A model generated the notes under the pieces. The model worked only from the letters and a program-made list of their open reading frames with translations. It had not been told where the DNA came from and did not search any database. DNA of 35,542 nucleotides, from positions 1-35,542 of the forward strand of contig CALRHL010000012.1 of the NCBI GenBank assembly GCA_943359455.1. Reading direction: 5' to 3'. The position numbers were made by a program, and so were the translations under genes. Below, in pieces: positions 1,801-35,408 of this stretch. The stretch's first letter is position 1, and every line of letters starts with the position of its first letter. This stretch comes from Candidatus Uhrbacteria bacterium RIFOXYB12_FULL_58_10. GTDB taxonomy: Bacteria > Patescibacteriota > Patescibacteriia > UBA9934 > GWF2-40-263.

Positions 1801-2805
1801 TTATGGGAGTTCGTAGAGCACAATACTCTGAAACGCTGCGGCTTCGAGAAACCAAAATGATGATTCGATCGAAAGAAGTTCTCCATCTTTTTCATCCTCT
1901 TGCTGATACACTTCCACAGCTTCAAGATCTTCATTATACCTGACGATAAACGATAGACCTCCCACCTCTTCCTTCACTTCCTTCGCCTTTATCAGACGAT
2001 CGAGCGGAAACACATATCGGGTTACCTCCCCCAACCCCTCCTTTACAAGGAGAGGGGACAGCCCATACACAATCGTTTTTGCTGGTAATCGATCGTCGTA
2101 GGATGTGAGTGGATACCAAATTGCTTGCGTGGATAAATAATTGTCGTAAGGATCACGTGTGTAATCACGATCGGCTCCCGTCTCGCGCGATAGCACCTGT
2201 CCATTTGGATAGTTCAACTTCCATACATCCCAAGACATAACGGACGAAGGATAGCGCTTCAAAAACTGTCCATCCGCTTCCCCCAAGACGGCGCGACCAA
2301 GAATCTGACTCCAGAATGAACTCGTCTTTGTATCAATCATGAGAAGATTATTGTTCCAAACATTTTCTGAAACATGAAACAACGGTCGTTCGCTCATCTC
2401 GCTCAGATCAAACACAGATCCTGTGAACGTCAACGGAGCGTACGTCACGACGATCGGCCGATCGTCGAAAAGATCATTCACCACCTGATGCCAGACGAGC
2501 AACTGATACGGATAAAAACGATGCTTCCCTCCCACTTCAACATCCAATCCAAACCCATCATCATTCAAATACACATCTGCCGCGCCAACGGATTCGAATT
2601 GAGGATTATCGATCGAAGGCACCGCCCCAGCCATCATCCCCGTCGGAACAAAATCTGTCTCAACCTCCCTCTCGGCCTCCTGGCCTAAAGCCTCACGGCC
2701 TTCCCTCTCAACCGGAACTCGATAATACCAATGCATCCCGTACAGCATTAAAGCAACGGCACACCCAAATCCCCCTGCAATCAAGAAGCCAGTTGTACGT
2801 TTCAT
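1801..2805 (-). CDS. DUF3179 family membrane-anchored protein
   Basis: 334 aa, function unknown. An N-terminal membrane segment (residues 7-27) puts the rest outside the cytoplasm. Family features: FYPYQLLVWHQVVND (97-111), RPIVVTYAPLTFTGSVFD (116-133) and DYTRDPYDNY (214-223), which match the DUF3179 pattern. The usual Cys pair of that family (YCPLCGTG) is replaced by YAPLTFTG, so any Cys-based metal or redox role seems lost. Two stretches look like repeat-derived insertions: residues 33-47 (VEREGREALGQEAER) and 249-261 (LSPLLVKEGLGEV), the latter between IVYG and YVFPLDRL, where relatives run straight through. First gene of the DUF3179-rsmI-metG operon, with a promoter at 2820-2847. Confidence 0.85.
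   Translation of the reverse strand: MKRTTGFLIAGGFGCAVALMLYGMHWYYRVPVEREGREALGQEAEREVETDFVPTGMMAGAVPSIDNPQFESVGAADVYLNDDGFGLDVEVGGKHRFYPYQLLVWHQVVNDLFDDRPIVVTYAPLTFTGSVFDLSEMSERPLFHVSENVWNNNLLMIDTKTSSFWSQILGRAVLGEADGQFLKRYPSSVMSWDVWKLNYPNGQVLSRETGADRDYTRDPYDNYLSTQAIWYPLTSYDDRLPAKTIVYGLSPLLVKEGLGEVTRYVFPLDRLIKAKEVKEEVGGLSFIVRYNEDLEAVEVYQQEDEKDGELLSIESSFWFLEAAAFQSIVLYELP
2024..2058. repeat. palindromic repeat, family A, inside the DUF3179 gene
   Basis: Core CCCCTCCTTTACAAGGAGA, an imperfect palindrome preceded by a C-rich tract. It belongs with the copies at 33246-33278 and 34448-34487 and more distantly with 32529-32572. It is read in frame here as LSPLLVKEGLGEV. Confidence 0.75.
2671..2709. 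repeat. GGCCT-type repeat, family B, inside the DUF3179 gene
   Basis: Contains GGCCTCCTGGCCTAAAGCCT followed by CACGGCC. Related tracts lie in pepA (6162-6200), dnaX (34231-34315) and between genes (7222-7251). Encodes about residues 33-47 of the host protein, between the membrane anchor and the domain. Confidence 0.6.
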
Positions 2806-5451: not shown

Positions 5452-6926
5452 ACACTTTTCAAATACTCAATCAACGTTCTCACCCCATGTCCTGTGCCAC
5501 CTTTTGGCGTATAGGCGTTGACTTGCTTTTCTGCAAACGCAGGACCAGCAATATCGAGATGGACCCAAGGGATGCCTGCGACGAATTCTTGGAGTAATAA
5601 TCCAGCCGTGAGTGAACCACCCCAGCGTGGGGCGTCGTTTTTATAGTCAGCAATGTCTGTCTTGATTAGTTCTTTGTAATGTTCAGGCAACGGTAACTCC
5701 CACATGTTCTCGCCGGCTTCCGCGGCCGCGGCAAGAACTTTTTTCCCGAGCGTAGGATTATTTGTCATGAGTCCAGTGAACTCTTCGCCAAGGGCAACAA
5801 CACACGCTCCGGTCAACGTAGCAAGATCGATAATCACATCTGGTTTTTGTTTTGTTGCGTATGTGAGTGTATCTGCAAGCGTCACACGACCTTCCGCATC
5901 GGTATTTTTAATCTCGATCGTTTTTCCATTCATGATGGTGACGACATCTCCAGGACGGATTGCCTTCCCCGATGGCATATTTTCAACCGCGCCAAAAATA
6001 CCGTGTACTTCCGCGTCGGGTGCAAGTTTATCAATGACAGAAAAAACTCCAAGCACTGCTGCCGCTCCAGCCATGTCGCACTTCATTGTTTCCATCGAGT
6101 TCGCGGGCTTCAATGACAATCCGCCAGAGTCAAACGTCACCGCCTTCCCAACCAGCGCAATCCTCCGTGCCTCCCGGCCTCCCGGCCTCCTGACCTTGGG
6201 CTTGTACGTCAAATGGACAAGAAACGGCTCATGCTCCGATCCTTGTGAAATCCCAAGCAAACCGCCGGCTCCCATCTTTGCGAGCTGTTCGCGATCAAAA
6301 ACTTTGAGCTTAATCGAACCCTTCCCCTTTGCAATTGCTTTTGCAGAATCAACCAAATCTTCTGGTCGCATATGCGCGGCAGGAGTGTTCACTAAATTGC
6401 GAGCCAAAATCGTTCCGTCCGCCTCGAGTTCTGCACGTATAAGCTGTTCACTCGCTGTCCGCGCCAATCGCACATCGTCTGTAACAAGCTCAAATACATT
6501 TGGAGATTTCTTTTCGTCATCTTTTTTATATCTTCCAAAAGAATAATCCGCCAATCGAATCCCTTCAACCATTGCATGCGCGGATCCAAACAAATCGCAC
6601 ACCACGGATTTTGCCCCAACCGATTTTGCCGCTTTCAATACACAGGCTCCTGCCTCACGGGCATTTTCGTCGGTAAACTTTTTCTTTTCTCCAAGTCCGA
6701 GCAAAACAACGCGCTTTGCGTTCAACAAACCACTCGTTCGAATCATTAAAACAGACCCAAGCTTTGGCTTGAACCCTTCCTCCTTACAAATCGTTTCAAT
6801 CAGACCATCCAGCGCTTTATTCACCATCAATGATGTTCCGCTTAACTTTGTATCAAGAAACTGACTGATAATGAGAACGTCTGATTTTTCCTCTAAAATA
6901 TTTGCTTTGCGAATTGAAATTGTCAT
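5448..6926 (-). CDS. pepA: leucyl aminopeptidase (M17 cytosol aminopeptidase)
   Basis: Di-metal aminopeptidase that trims N-terminal residues in the cytoplasm; normally a hexamer. 492 aa, normal family length. The catalytic domain shows Lys261 and Asp266 in VGKAVTFDSGGLSLKP, Asp284 in MKCDMAGAAAV and the signature NTDAEGRVTLADTL (341-354). The N-terminal macro-like domain is ordinary. Residues 245-255 (VRRPGGREARR) lie just before the first metal-binding strand and are encoded by a family B repeat; relatives usually have only a few lysines there. ATGA overlaps link it to the membrane protein upstream and the ferredoxin downstream. The insert is at the surface-loop side, so activity is probably kept. 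Confidence 0.96.
   Translation of the reverse strand: MTISIRKANILEEKSDVLIISQFLDTKLSGTSLMVNKALDGLIETICKEEGFKPKLGSVLMIRTSGLLNAKRVVLLGLGEKKKFTDENAREAGACVLKAAKSVGAKSVVCDLFGSAHAMVEGIRLADYSFGRYKKDDEKKSPNVFELVTDDVRLARTASEQLIRAELEADGTILARNLVNTPAAHMRPEDLVDSAKAIAKGKGSIKLKVFDREQLAKMGAGGLLGISQGSEHEPFLVHLTYKPKVRRPGGREARRIALVGKAVTFDSGGLSLKPANSMETMKCDMAGAAAVLGVFSVIDKLAPDAEVHGIFGAVENMPSGKAIRPGDVVTIMNGKTIEIKNTDAEGRVTLADTLTYATKQKPDVIIDLATLTGACVVALGEEFTGLMTNNPTLGKKVLAAAAEAGENMWELPLPEHYKELIKTDIADYKNDAPRWGGSLTAGLLLQEFVAGIPWVHLDIAGPAFAEKQVNAYTPKGGTGHGVRTLIEYLKSV
6162..6200. repeat. GGCCT-type repeat, family B, inside pepA
   Basis: CTCCCGGCCTCCCGGCCTCC is a tandem of CTCCCGGC units, read in frame as VRRPGGREARR. 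See the related tracts at 2671-2709 and 34231-34315. Confidence 0.65.
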
Positions 6927-9683: not shown

Positions 9684-9956
9684 ATGGAGAACATCATTAT
9701 GTCCCAAAAGGAGAATGAACGAGTGAAGGTGGTCCGTGACATCCTGGCTGGCCGCCGCACGCAAGTTGGTGAAGCAAAGCGTCTAAAGGTGACGACGAGG
9801 TGTATCCGGTACTGGATGGAATCCTTTGAAGTAGACGGGGCGGAGGGCCTCGTCCACGGGAATCGTGGAAAGGAGAGTCCACGTCGCGTTCCGGACAAAG
9901 AGCGCGAGGAGATCGCCTCGCTCATCCGGAACAGCTACGATCTGACCGTCACTTAG
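9684..9956 (+). pseudogene. ISNCY-type transposase, N-terminal helix-turn-helix remnant
   Basis: 90 codons: the N-terminal DNA-binding region of an ISNCY/IS481-like transposase. Helix-turn-helix around RRTQVGEAKRLKVTTRCIRYW, then the usual linker EGLVHGNRGKESPRRVP and REEIASLIRNSY. The catalytic DDE domain is missing: after SY the frame runs into the palindromic repeat at 9940 and stops (DLTVT). Full-length relatives have about 400 residues. The HTH piece could still be made and bind the element's ends, but this is more likely debris. The start could be 9684 or the ATG six codons later. Confidence 0.8.
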
Positions 9957-10086
9957 AGACGGTCAAAACAACGATGATAAAAATACATTTAAATCACCCT
10001 GTAAAATAACAACGGAATCACAAGACAAACATCAAAAACAATCTGACCGTCACTAAGTGACGGTCAGATCTAAGTGACGGTCAGAT
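9940..10086. mobile_element. nested 147-bp MITE-like element
   Basis: Perfect 18-bp terminal inverted repeats: ATCTGACCGTCACTTAGA at 9940-9957 and its complement at 10069-10086. Next to the right end is a further 29-bp palindrome (10041-10069) made of the same 14-base arm. The interior is AT-rich with no ORF. It truncates the transposase remnant, so it arrived after that element. Confidence 0.7.
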
Positions 10087-23710: not shown

Positions 23711-23791
23711 TGCCCGGCTCTACCGTTGCCCGGCTCTGAGAGCCGGGAGTGCCCTGTAAACATTGACGCTCCCGGCTCTCAGAGCCGGGAG
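23711..23791. repeat. REP doublet downstream of the transposase gene
   Basis: Half copy GCCCGGCTCT (about 23712-23721), full palindrome CCCGGCTCTGAGAGCCGGG (23729-23747), spacer TGCCCTGTAAACATTGACG, then a second palindrome with core CCCGGCTCTCAGAGCCGGG (23769-23791). The same doublet with nearly the same spacer is at 24528-24596. Confidence 0.88.
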
Positions 23792-24468
23792 AAAGTTAGT
23801 TCTTCTTCGCCAAAGATACGTGAAGCTTTTAAGTACTGCAGATACACTTCTGGGGTTGAAAACCAATACTGGACAGCTTCTCTATCAACGACCGGGAGTC
23901 GTGGACTTCTTCCTATATAGACACCATGACTTGACCACGGATAATTATTTAGAACTTTTTCTGCTACTGTCCAATCAAATTCATTGTTATTTCGCCAGTC
24001 AATACTTGTTCGATCAAGCACATTGAGATGAATATATCTCGGAAGTAACTGCAAATGCTCTTCAAAATCAATCGGTTTAGCTTTAAATGAATTCTCCCAC
24101 AGTCTTCCTTTGCGTCCATGTTTCAGATTAAAATAGTTCGCATATCCCATACCAAGACGATGGAGAAATTTAGAAATGCCATCTGGAAGAATCTGTTGAA
24201 GTAAAAGGTGAAAATGATTGTCATTCAAACAAAATGCCAGAATTGAGACAAACGGTTTCCTCCCAAACGATAAGATTTCATGTCCAGCGAGCAAAAATTC
24301 TCGATCGACGAACCTTCCACCTGGATGAACAAAATTTTCATCATTAAATAGATACATGGATTCATAAAAACGCTCAAAGTCGTAATAATCCAAAAACACT
24401 TTACGCTTATCAACGCCGCGATTGTAGACATGATAGTAATCACCAGAAACAAATGGTTCTCGAATCAT
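23779..24468 (-). CDS. REP-associated tyrosine transposase (RAYT, Y1_Tnp / TnpA-REP)
   Basis: HUH single-strand DNA transposase of the domesticated RAYT group, which nicks and spreads REP hairpins. 229 aa. N-terminal motif YYHVYNRGVDKRKVF, the metal-binding HFH (85-87 in FCLNDNHFHLLL), and the catalytic Tyr in MGYANYFNLKHGRKGRLW (Tyr109, or Tyr112). It is flanked on both sides by REP doublets in the same orientation. The stop codon TGA lies inside the nearest REP palindrome, whose first half encodes the last residues FSRL. It looks intact and may be active; chromosomal REP copies such as 12241-12267 fit its action. Confidence 0.92.
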   Translation of the reverse strand: MIREPFVSGDYYHVYNRGVDKRKVFLDYYDFERFYESMYLFNDENFVHPGGRFVDREFLLAGHEILSFGRKPFVSILAFCLNDNHFHLLLQQILPDGISKFLHRLGMGYANYFNLKHGRKGRLWENSFKAKPIDFEEHLQLLPRYIHLNVLDRTSIDWRNNNEFDWTVAEKVLNNYPWSSHGVYIGRSPRLPVVDREAVQYWFSTPEVYLQYLKASRIFGEEELTFSRL

Positions 24469-24527: not shown

Positions 24528-24596
24528 ACACTCCCGGCTCTCAGAGCCGGGAGTGTCCTGTAAACATTGACGTTCCTGGCTCTGAGAGCCGGGAAC
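24528..24596. repeat. REP doublet upstream of the transposase gene
   Basis: Palindrome with 14-bp arms, core CCCGGCTCTCAGAGCCGGG (24528-24556), spacer TGTCCTGTAAACATTGACG, then an imperfect palindrome GTTCCTGGCTCT/AGAGCCGGGAAC (24572-24596). Further half-like GAGAGCCTGGAAC and a short hairpin ACAGGGTATGTCCCTGT follow to about 24660, so the 210-base gap before murF holds only repeats. Confidence 0.88.
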
Positions 24597-32215: not shown

Positions 32216-32752
32216 CTTCGACTTCCCTTCCACTTCATCCACCACCAATGGCTCCCAACCTTCGATCGGCCAGACATATGTGACAACGCGGGTGCCAGGG
32301 CGGAGTTCCGCTTCGAGCTTTGGTCGGATTTTTTCATATGTTTCTGGCATAAGAAACATGTACACAGCATCAACATCGCGCAAATCGTAATGAAACGCAT
32401 TTGCAAGAATAAATTTAACGTTCCACGTCCGCGACAGGATGCGACGGATATTTGCGATGAGATATTGCAAGAGAGAAAGCTCGAGACCTGTTCCAACGAG
32501 ACGCGAATTACCGCGAGGAAGCGTGTTACCCCCTCCTAGCTCCCCCTTTAAATGGGGGAGAGACAGGAGGGAGAGAATAACCCTCCCGTCTCCACATCCA
32601 AGCTCAACAAATTTCTCTCCATCCTGAAGCGCGAGCAGTTTTTTCAGACGATCAATATCCCCTCGAAACGTCGGAACCCAAGGCGCCCCAGATGCCGCGG
32701 CGTAGGCGAGGGAAAAAAGTAAGATAAAAAAAATGATCCAAACAAATGTCAT
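32195..32752 (-). CDS. membrane-anchored class I SAM methyltransferase-like protein
   Basis: 185 aa. N-terminal membrane helix (about 3-20), then DRLKKLLALQDGEKFVELGC and GDGRVILSL: the SAM-binding glycine loop is ELGCGDG (50-56). Post-motif strands include VKFILANAFHYDL and ADAVYMFLMPETYEKIRPKL-like text (DVDAVYMFL), and YVWPIEGWEPLVV near the end. Residues 63-80 (LSLPHLKGELGGGNTLPRGN) break the strand order between motif I and the acidic residue of motif II (TGLEL) and come from a palindromic C-rich repeat. Substrate unknown. Lies between hicBA and tRNA-Pro. Confidence 0.8.
   Translation of the reverse strand: MTFVWIIFFILLFSLAYAAASGAPWVPTFRGDIDRLKKLLALQDGEKFVELGCGDGRVILSLLSLPHLKGELGGGNTLPRGNSRLVGTGLELSLLQYLIANIRRILSRTWNVKFILANAFHYDLRDVDAVYMFLMPETYEKIRPKLEAELRPGTRVVTYVWPIEGWEPLVVDEVEGKSKLYLYRR
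32529..32572. repeat. palindromic repeat, family A-like, inside the methyltransferase gene
   Basis: CTCCCCCTTTAAATGGGGGAG perfect-core palindrome (CTCCCCCTTT / AATGGGGGAG), flanked by CCCTCCTAG and ACAGGAGGG as an outer pair. Read in frame as part of SLPHLKGELGGGNT. Confidence 0.75.
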
Positions 32753-32878: not shown

Positions 32879-33880
32879 CTAATAATCAAGTCCTTCTCTT
32901 GCTTTCACTCCTGAATAAAAATAGTGCTTACGGAGTTTCATCTCAGTTACAAGATGCGCGCGGTCAAGAAAGGCGTCAGGGGCGTTGCGGCCAGTGAGAA
33001 TCAGCTCTGTCTGATCCGGCTTCTGGTCAATCACCTTAATCACCTCACTCACCTCTAACAAACCAAGATCAACCGACGAATTAATCTCGTCCATGACCAC
33101 GAGATCGTACCCGTCCAGAAACATTTTTTTCACTTCTATCAGACCGCGCTCTGCTTCGTCTTTGTCGATCTGCTGGATGGAAAAATCAAAACGATTTGTA
33201 ACCGGATCGATGCGGTCGCGACCAGTCGGGACGTAGCGCAGATAACCACCCCCTACCCCTCCTTGAAAAGGAGGGGAGAACTTGTATAAAATGAGTCTTT
33301 CAAAATAATGCGTGTCCCCTCCTTTGTCAAAATACACAATCCCAACTTTTTTTCCAGCTCCAAGTGCGCGGATCGCTGAGCCGAGACCGGCAGTTGTTTT
33401 TCCTTTGCCGTTTCCTGTAAAAACTTGTACAAGTCCGTACCCTTGTCGACCCTTAATCGCCTCATCTGCCGCGACAACGATCCCTTCTGACTTCCGATAC
33501 GCTTCCAAAACTTCGACAACAGGTGGATGCGCATCTTTTGGAAATGCTTGACGCGGGTCGATCCAAATACAAGATCCATGCTCATCAGACAAGACAATCT
33601 CAACATCCAAAACTGGCACAACATAAAATACACTTGCGACTGGTTCAGGTGGAGTCCCCTTATACGGATACACTCCAACAAAAAATGGCCGTGCCTTTGC
33701 CGGGTCAACCGTAACACCTGTTTCCTCTCTTAACTCACGAACAAGCCCTTCCAACATATTCTCCCCTTCATCCATCCGTCCCCCAGGCAAATCCCATCTA
33801 CCATCTCTCAACATCATGATCAAAATTTTCCCATGAGGATTTACAAGAACGGCTTTATTCGATACTTGCATTTTGTGCAT
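32879..33880 (-). CDS. NUDIX hydrolase fused to CobO/BtuR-like cobalamin adenosyltransferase
   Basis: 333 aa from ATG 33880, just after the dnaX stop; the longer frame runs into dnaX. Residues about 5-135 are a NUDIX domain with the box GGRMDEGENMLEGLVRELRE then ETG (33-55). From about 146 a CobO/BtuR-type ATP:corrinoid adenosyltransferase follows: P-loop GNGKGKTTAGLG (156-167), DLVVMDEINSSVDLGLL and TELILTGRNAPDAFLDRAHL. The CobO half is near full length, ending KAREGLDY. Residues 202-213 (SPPFQGGVGGGY) come from a family A repeat inside the domain. This fusion is unusual; roles in B12 salvage and nucleotide clean-up are family inference. Confidence 0.85.
   Translation of the reverse strand: MHKMQVSNKAVLVNPHGKILIMMLRDGRWDLPGGRMDEGENMLEGLVRELREETGVTVDPAKARPFFVGVYPYKGTPPEPVASVFYVVPVLDVEIVLSDEHGSCIWIDPRQAFPKDAHPPVVEVLEAYRKSEGIVVAADEAIKGRQGYGLVQVFTGNGKGKTTAGLGSAIRALGAGKKVGIVYFDKGGDTHYFERLILYKFSPPFQGGVGGGYLRYVPTGRDRIDPVTNRFDFSIQQIDKDEAERGLIEVKKMFLDGYDLVVMDEINSSVDLGLLEVSEVIKVIDQKPDQTELILTGRNAPDAFLDRAHLVTEMKLRKHYFYSGVKAREGLDY
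33246..33278. repeat. palindromic repeat, family A, inside the NUDIX-CobO gene
   Basis: Core CCCCTCCTTGAAAAGGAGGGG, preceded by ACCACCCCCT. All but one base of the shared GATAACCACC... to GGAG stretch equals the dnaX copy at 34448-34487, and both are read in the same frame as SPPFQGGVGGGY. Confidence 0.88.
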
Positions 33881-33884
33881 AGTT

Positions 33885-35408
33885 TTAGACAACAGATCCT
33901 CCAAACGCCCCAAGTAAATCTTCGACGACAACTTCCATCTCCTTCTTCACATGTTTTGCTTTGATACGAACAGAACGGCCAAGGACGCGAGTGAACACCT
34001 GTTCGAGGAGCTTTCGATTTTTGTCTTGATTGATCGCGTCCACATAAACGGGATACGCAAAGGACATTTCGATTGCGTCACCATCGACGGCGGAAACTTC
34101 TCCTGTCTGAACAACCATTGGGAGCGTTGCGTTGCATTCTTTAATCTGCTGAAAAACTTCCGGCCATTTGCGTCGAACATCTTCGAGATCGAGGACTGGC
34201 ACGGTGCCGAGGGCGGTGGAGACAGAAGAAAGGCCGAGAGGTTTTAGGCCGAGAGGTTCGGAGGGAGATTCTGTATTTTTTCCTCCAGGCCTAAAGCCTA
34301 ATGCCTCAAGGCCTTTTTCCTCCACCTGTTCTTTTGGGTCGTCATGAACGCGACATGCCTTTATGATGGCTAATTCAAGTGGGAGAGAGATGATTTTTGC
34401 ACTCCGCATCTGTCTGCGCGCTTCGAGGAGGGATTCGATCAGCAACGGATAACCACCCCCAACCCCTCCTTGAAAAGGAGGGGAGTTTGTCTGAGGGAGA
34501 AACGAAGTCATCATCTTGTCTCGCAGCTGTGCAATCACATCTTCGACAAAATATGGAAGGTCGAGGCCTTGTTCTTGACCGTCCTTAACGATCTTGAGTG
34601 ACTCAGATCTGTCAGAACGAATCAACGCCGCAACAAATGCATCGACGAGCAACGCATTTGTCGCGGGCAAGACAAGAGATGCTTCGTTCATCGTAATCTT
34701 TATATTCCCTGAGCGTGTCGAAGGGCCTGCAAGTCCAAGCACCTGTCCGAGCATACTCTCTGCATCGCGCAACCCTCCATCAGCATGTCTCGCAATTTCA
34801 ACGAGCACGTTTTTATCAACAGAAATTTTTTCTTGTTCAACGATCTTTTCCAATCGTTCCAAAATTACCTCAACAGACAATCTCTTAAAATCAAACCGCT
34901 GACAGCGACTGATAATTGTTGCAGGGACTTTGTGCGTTTCTGTTGTTGCTAAAATAAATAATGCATGCGCTGGAGGCTCTTCCAGTGTTTTCAAAAGCGC
35001 ATTAAAAGATGATGTCGAAAGCATGTGTACCTCATCGATGATGTACACTTTGTATTTCAATTTATTCGGAGCAAACCGAACACTCTCAATAATATTCTCT
35101 CGTACACTCTCCACGCCTGTGTTCGACGCGGCATCAATCTCGCAGATATCGAGTGCAGAACCTTTGGCGATTTCAAGGCAGGGTGAACAAGATCCGCAAG
35201 GCTCCCCGTCTTGATTCTTCTCACAGTTCACCGCCTTCGCAGTCAGCCTCGCCACAGTCGTCTTTCCAACTCCACGTGGACCTGTTAACAAATACGCATG
35301 CGAAATCGAACCAGTGGCGATCTGGTTTTGTAGCGTCGTTTTCACATGATCCTGCCCTGTCACATCCGCAAACGTGGCAGGACGATATTTGCGGTAGAGG
35401 ACTTCCAT
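33885..35408 (-). CDS. dnaX: DNA polymerase III subunits gamma/tau
   Basis: Clamp-loader ATPase. 507 aa: Walker A GPRGVGKTT (43-51), zinc Cys62, Cys71, Cys74, Cys77 (CEKNQDGEPCGSCSPC), Walker B IIDEVHML (123-130), sensor 1 LATTETHK, and SRCQRFDF. The AAA+ core is intact to about 225. After it three repeat-derived peptides occur: GPSTRSGN (228-235), NSPPFQGGVGGGY (308-320), and EKGLEALGFRPGGKN with EPLGLKPLGL (364-393). The last lies in a linker before the C-terminal tau-like domain; the other two are in domain III. Starts 2 bases after the stop of the upstream partial gene; the NUDIX-CobO gene follows 4 bases later. Confidence 0.95.
   Translation of the reverse strand: MEVLYRKYRPATFADVTGQDHVKTTLQNQIATGSISHAYLLTGPRGVGKTTVARLTAKAVNCEKNQDGEPCGSCSPCLEIAKGSALDICEIDAASNTGVESVRENIIESVRFAPNKLKYKVYIIDEVHMLSTSSFNALLKTLEEPPAHALFILATTETHKVPATIISRCQRFDFKRLSVEVILERLEKIVEQEKISVDKNVLVEIARHADGGLRDAESMLGQVLGLAGPSTRSGNIKITMNEASLVLPATNALLVDAFVAALIRSDRSESLKIVKDGQEQGLDLPYFVEDVIAQLRDKMMTSFLPQTNSPPFQGGVGGGYPLLIESLLEARRQMRSAKIISLPLELAIIKACRVHDDPKEQVEEKGLEALGFRPGGKNTESPSEPLGLKPLGLSSVSTALGTVPVLDLEDVRRKWPEVFQQIKECNATLPMVVQTGEVSAVDGDAIEMSFAYPVYVDAINQDKNRKLLEQVFTRVLGRSVRIKAKHVKKEMEVVVEDLLGAFGGSVV
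34231..34315. repeat. GGCCT-type repeats, family B, inside dnaX
   Basis: AGGCCGAGAGGTTTTAGGCC and CGAGAGG (34231-34259), then AGGCCTAAAGCCTAATGCCT and CAAGGCC (34287-34313). Two units with a non-repeat centre, read in frame as EALGFRPGG and PLGLKPLGL. Confidence 0.7.
34448..34487. repeat. palindromic repeat, family A, inside dnaX
   Basis: GATAACCACCCCCAACCCCT, then CCTTGAAAAGGAGGGGAG. Near-identical twin of 33246-33278; read in frame as NSPPFQGGVGGGY. Confidence 0.9.
34706..34728. repeat. CCCTGAGC..CGAAGGG repeat, family I, inside dnaX
   Basis: TCCCTGAGCGTGTCGAAGGG, a short imperfect palindrome of a kind seen widely in bacterial genomes; read in frame as GPSTRSG. Confidence 0.6.

Follow-up and report, generated by a model that had tools for sequence, protein, structure and literature searches.

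The essential DNA-replication gene dnaX, encoding the gamma/tau subunit of DNA polymerase III, carries four repeat pieces belonging to three families (one of family A, one of family B and two of family C), all in frame and free of stop codons, in the 35,542-nucleotide Candidatus Uhrbacteria contig that we analyzed as a whole (hereafter the window). Very probably, A and B are REP-like mobile palindromes that were inserted in frame into a living, single-copy dnaX and are translated, with the C pieces being AGGC-phased arrays in an unconstrained linker. A preliminary description of this DNA had proposed three distinct repeat families, all in frame and all located beyond residue 225. Both statements hold, as the families recur in the genome far above reversed-pattern controls and the pieces occupy residues 228-234 (B), 309-320 (A), and 366-376 and 385-393 (C).

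The coordinates of the dnaX open reading frame (33885..35408, minus strand; 507 aa) were confirmed exactly. Its product matches the DnaX equivalog TIGR02397 in the N-terminal part (394 bits) and shows the AAA+ clamp-loader fold in a Foldseek comparison with the E. coli clamp loader (E 2e-32); judged by DnaX, the best named relative is a Candidatus Uhrbacteria genome. A homology search of the 1.07-Mb assembly returned a single full-length dnaX. The second match was a HolB-like paralogue, and the third was spurious, corresponding to a family A repeat. Past the inserts, the C-terminal domain is preserved, with 82% identity to its counterpart in a congener, which argues that the reading frame is in use, and the elements are apparently translated straight through into the protein. 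We also considered a programmed frameshift at the A6 run of the linker (GGAGGAAAAAAT), which was discarded because runs of six or more A occur throughout the dnaX genes of relatives.

The family B palindromic element (ATTCCCTGAGCGTGTCGAAGGGCC; 34704-34727, plus strand) encodes GPSTRSG on the minus strand and represents a net insertion of 21 bp. Its 19-mer (≤3 mismatches) occurs at 16 sites in the genome, versus none for the reversed pattern. In the alignment of CPR DnaX proteins, which the preliminary description had proposed as a check, B forms a clean insertion of +7 residues without counterpart in the 25 relatives, none of which has more than one residue at this site. Aligned with E. coli gamma, the gap opens precisely at the B position, and in the DnaX proteins of 50 diverse bacteria it holds no residue in 39 cases and one in 11, so that the native conservation in distant species named beforehand as the counter-evidence was not found for B. 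The element lies in a short loop behind the final helix of the AAA+ lid, domain II (AlphaFold pLDDT 80-88); the domain names II and III follow the E. coli structure. The AAA+ core had been described as untouched, which is correct for the nucleotide-binding/NTPase domain, but B touches the edge of the lid (residues 182-224 according to Pfam).

A lone B unit folds into a 4-bp stem only, and one inverted B pair exists in the genome (C8:30120/30152). The copy in dnaX terminates in ATT and does not show the terminal CGTC tag, 8-9 bp stem and 3-nt tail of CGTC-REPs; CGTC is carried by one genomic copy (L042). B also lies within further genes here (read as DusB, LeuRS, ASADH and a glycosyltransferase), where its PELVEG or PSTSSG frames are used; further reading frames are used in other CPR genomes. 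The exact B 17-mer was present in 67 of 287 sampled Patescibacteria genomes and its reversed control in none, while a literature search with the B core sequence retrieved unrelated papers only. In another CPR genome (L261:1500), B is found in frame (PSTSSG) in an apparent uvrB, a gene named by eye; uvrB of Rickettsia conorii is also struck by REPs (PMC3733652). In one CPR genome (G176:C1:3896-3984), the exact B 17-mer stands four times in tandem with a 24-bp period, which is divisible by three.

The family A element of dnaX is a single REP-like unit (TCCCCTCCTTTTCAAGGAGGGGTTGGGGGTGGTTAT; 34449-34484, minus strand) of 36 bp, contributing 12 codons (peptide SPPFQGGVGGGY). It lies in the loop joining the domain III helices 284-303 and 319-334, with a mean pLDDT of 62 for residues 311-320. 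The distance from LRDKM to LEARR is 28 residues here versus 15, 17 and 19 in three congeners, and this gain of +13, +11 and +9 fits a 12-codon unit within a loop that itself varies. A second copy, which shares 97% identity and the reading frame, is an insertion of +11 aa in the neighboring nudix-cobO gene (33242..33277, minus strand); for cobO, the congeners L272 and L278 are 11 residues shorter, and the A unit is absent from all readable relatives. Within the window we also identified a diverged A-like unit (LPHLKGELGGGN; 32525..32562, minus strand) in a methyltransferase-like gene and a variant (SPLLVKEGLGEV; 2020..2057, minus strand) in the gene at 1801-2805 that is read in another frame than the dnaX copy. 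The latter gene is a second multi-repeat gene of the window, as it also holds a family C array (2675-2701).

Genome-wide, the A core 17-mer (≤2 mismatches) matched 29 sites versus 1 for the reversed pattern, and a single unit folds into a 9-bp stem with a 3-nt loop (z -3.4), in line with the multi-copy stem-loops of 20-40 bp that characterize REP/REPIN sequences. Eight head-to-head pairs at 37-46 bp spacing correspond to REP/REPIN dimers, and paired units fold into one long DNA hairpin (z = -9.8). Intergenic A copies are REPIN-like, comprising two inverted units with their GGTGGTTA tails outward; genic copies are single units. The units end in GGTGGTTA(C/T), several bases away from the stem, and the pair termini read GTAACC...GGTTAC, without the GTAG (or GTGG-like) tetranucleotide that stands beside the stem in the GTAG super-family of REP/REPIN sequences. 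Counts from one search of relatives for the family A pattern are lower bounds, as the spacing that it used suits part of the family only. At G000:C41:3271-3944 (L022-L024), A units, some whole and some partial, form a cluster that also contains the repeated AGGAACGTGAGGATTGAAAAGGAGGGG and may be an array in expansion.

Both family C arrays of dnaX lie on the minus strand in the linker. The first consists of AGGC units in a 7- or 8-bp phase (34282-34315; GLEALGFRPGG, residues 366-376), and the second is a 15-bp tandem with CCTCTCGGCCT (34231-34256; PLGLKPLGL, residues 385-393), a unit that recurs in other family C sites. The C pattern gave 48 genome matches versus 9 for the reversed pattern, with sites counted twice, once per strand, because the pattern is partly palindromic. 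For residues 361-400, AlphaFold returned a mean pLDDT of 41-46, and the linker as a whole stays below 50, consistent with disorder. Alignment of this hypervariable linker fails even among members of the genus, so C in dnaX is not demonstrable as an insertion. The proposal of several independent insertions is thus well supported for A and B, which are lineage-specific and absent from relatives, and plausible for C. The sites had been placed in domain III and the linker, which is correct for A and C, respectively, but not for B at the end of domain II. The suggested structure prediction put A and C in low-confidence or disordered segments. In pepA (leucyl aminopeptidase; window 6169-6188), a C array encodes RRPGGREA, and the protein is ~5 residues longer than a solved relative immediately ahead of the conserved LVGK..TFDSGG motif. 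A C match in a triosephosphate isomerase-like gene appeared native in length and was discounted as a chance hit.

By a rough estimate, four sites in one gene exceed chance: ~0.06-0.09 were expected from the density in the other genes of the 435-kb sample, and P(≥4) x 385 genes amounts to ~2e-4 to 1e-3, in a simple Poisson calculation for a gene that was preselected for repeats and includes soft C sites. The gene-level statistics are based on the window and a further 400 kb of stretches; the pattern searches covered the whole genome. Among 29 other DnaX proteins of the group, the linker contains an A-type element in L094 (same genus), an A-like one in L079 and a B-type one in both L081 and L101, which indicates that the linker was struck repeatedly by different elements. 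As for an enrichment of A/B elements in the relatives' dnaX, the counts (4 in 45 kb versus 2 in 80 kb of flanking DNA) are suggestive only.

Two RAYT-like Y1 proteins are encoded in the genome, both flanked by palindromes. The one in the window (23779..24468, minus strand) lies between palindromes at 23729-23790 and 24533-24594 that are distinct from A, B and C; one resident RAYT is flanked by GACCGTCACTAAGTGACGGTC (family D) and the other by CCCGGCTCTSAGAGCCGGG (family E). Beside these two genes and 30 Y1-transposase loci of relatives we found other palindromes or none, but neither A nor B. Hence, among these loci, no transposase could be linked to A, B or C, and a cognate RAYT flanked by the same repeat, as known for REP/REPIN sequences, was not found for A and B. 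Published CGTC repeats are likewise without a linked transposase (PMC3733652, Table 1). We infer that A and B would be mobilized in trans by HUH-type single-strand transposition. Both are open in 5/6 reading frames, whereas family D is closed in 5/6 frames and intergenic at 12/12 sampled sites, as selection on translated inserts predicts. An inverted family D pair, 101 bp apart, lies at 9937-10070 of the window; the same repeat flanks the RAYT on contig C6.

Taken as in-frame insertions, A and B as short palindromic REP-like elements would become part of the DnaX product, and the C segments would be short AGGC-phased arrays within a linker already free of constraint. Survival in the gene would be favored by lengths that are multiples of three (A, 36 bp; B, 21 bp net), by mostly open frames, and by sites in loops or the disordered linker, and the added peptides are presumably near-neutral for function. 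On sequence evidence, A and B in dnaX and A in cobO appear to be intragenic palindromic elements in the sense used for Rickettsia, being in frame, stop-free and missing in orthologues. With congeners only ~67% identical, neither a target-site duplication nor an exact empty site was readable.

Could the segments instead be native DnaX sequence that resembles repeats by coincidence? Drift could yield anything at the C sites, since the surrounding linker is hypervariable in all relatives, and the repeat-like stretches of ligA and rnhB match native-length segments. However, we consider this quite improbable, as the near-identical second copy of the A unit lies 1.2 kb off in an unrelated gene and its core recurs across the genome, the B site is empty in every other DnaX examined, and the 50-bacteria DnaX and cobO comparisons refute it for A and B. 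Short-read assemblers can be misled by 36-bp repeats, yet misassembly of this metagenome-derived genome at short repeats is exceedingly improbable: the frame and homology of dnaX run on at both sides of each element, which makes a chimera unlikely, and one open reading frame would need several separate errors.

Removal of the elements after transcription, by splicing or translational bypass, would leave them absent from the protein. Bypassed or excised coding segments exist in principle, and the elements form hairpins when folded. Still, every genic copy examined is in frame and stop-free, neither of which removal would need, and the stop-rich resident family D was never found within genes at the sampled sites, making this very improbable. 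The elements might also provide a selected function, for DnaX or for genome maintenance, by changing clamp loading, by acting as mutators or through a regulatory mRNA hairpin. Many intragenic REPs lie in replication/repair genes and mutator effects have been proposed for them (Di Nocera et al. 2013, PMC3733652), and in our data dnaX is over-represented and B occurs in the apparent uvrB of L261. We regard a selected function as unlikely, because the inserts vary among relatives, occupy loops or a disordered linker, and are also carried by metabolic and translation genes (LeuRS, ASADH, cobO).

Rickettsia palindromic elements (RPEs) are the classical case of protein-coding palindromes. As in dnaX, these palindromes are read in frame within essential proteins, in a host-dependent bacterium with a small genome, and several families share this property; their sequences are, as far as known, unrelated to the 21-36 bp elements described here. 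Moreover, RPE-1-bearing R. conorii proteins are expressed in vivo (cited in PMC3733652), whereas translation of the dnaX inserts is predicted from sequence. Di Nocera et al. 2013 (PMC3733652) described intragenic REPs of two families, GTAG and CGTC; as here, these are palindromes of 20-40 bp, single or in head-to-head dimers, with some in coding sequence. They are often found in replication and repair genes, as well as tRNA-related genes, at proposed sites in flexible linkers or loops that correspond to ours, and were suggested either to have inserted neutrally in loops or to act as mutators. In contrast, A, B and C in dnaX are without GTAG/CGTC ends and combine three families in one gene, and CPR is not among the phyla named in that work. 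REPIN/RAYT systems (TnpA-REP; PMC3116915, PMC8266576) resemble family A in layout, with two inverted units separated by a short spacer, and this genome in having two RAYT-like Y1 proteins, each between palindromes, but the palindromes beside the resident RAYTs are D and E rather than A, B or C. Intragenic REPs, including those in replication/repair genes (PMC3733652), and RPEs were already known. What this genome adds is their occurrence in CPR, three families crowded into one gene, and families that have neither a GTAG/CGTC tag nor, among the loci examined, a partner RAYT.

Palindromic elements within protein-coding sequence, previously described in Rickettsia and in free-living bacteria, are thereby extended to CPR, whose genomes are minimal, so that an insertion often strikes an indispensable gene. 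A single gene here documents several insertion events and flags loops that tolerate added peptide, pointing to a possible route by which short DNA parasites turn into new protein segments. For annotation, SPPFQGGVGGG, PSTSSG and PELVEG peptides are to be expected in CPR proteins and should not be taken for domains.

Less probably, the Patescibacteria palindromic families (A, B and relatives) might be adapted to genic life: they would be small, divisible by three in length, open in most frames and without a transposase of their own, would sometimes overwrite codons at constant length, and would have dnaX and other replication/repair genes as recurrent hosts. Genic repeats without length gain, namely C in ligA and a family E palindrome in rnhB, are left unexplained by simple insertion; such copies may reflect insertion followed by trimming, replacement of native codons or, for some, chance. 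The NAD-dependent DNA ligase gene ligA (L118:6494-8500) contains two C arrays (RGLRPEGLRPVG; GLKPKASRP) with no, or next to no, net length change relative to the E. coli ligase. In rnhB (ribonuclease HII; L108:12460-13059, G000:C1:92866), a perfect palindrome of the 22-bp class and family E type (ATTCCGGCTCTAAGAGCCGGAAT) occupies a region of native length (IPALRAGM; in a solved relative, SPAKRERL). This looks as though the repeat had taken the place of native codons and had not lengthened the protein.
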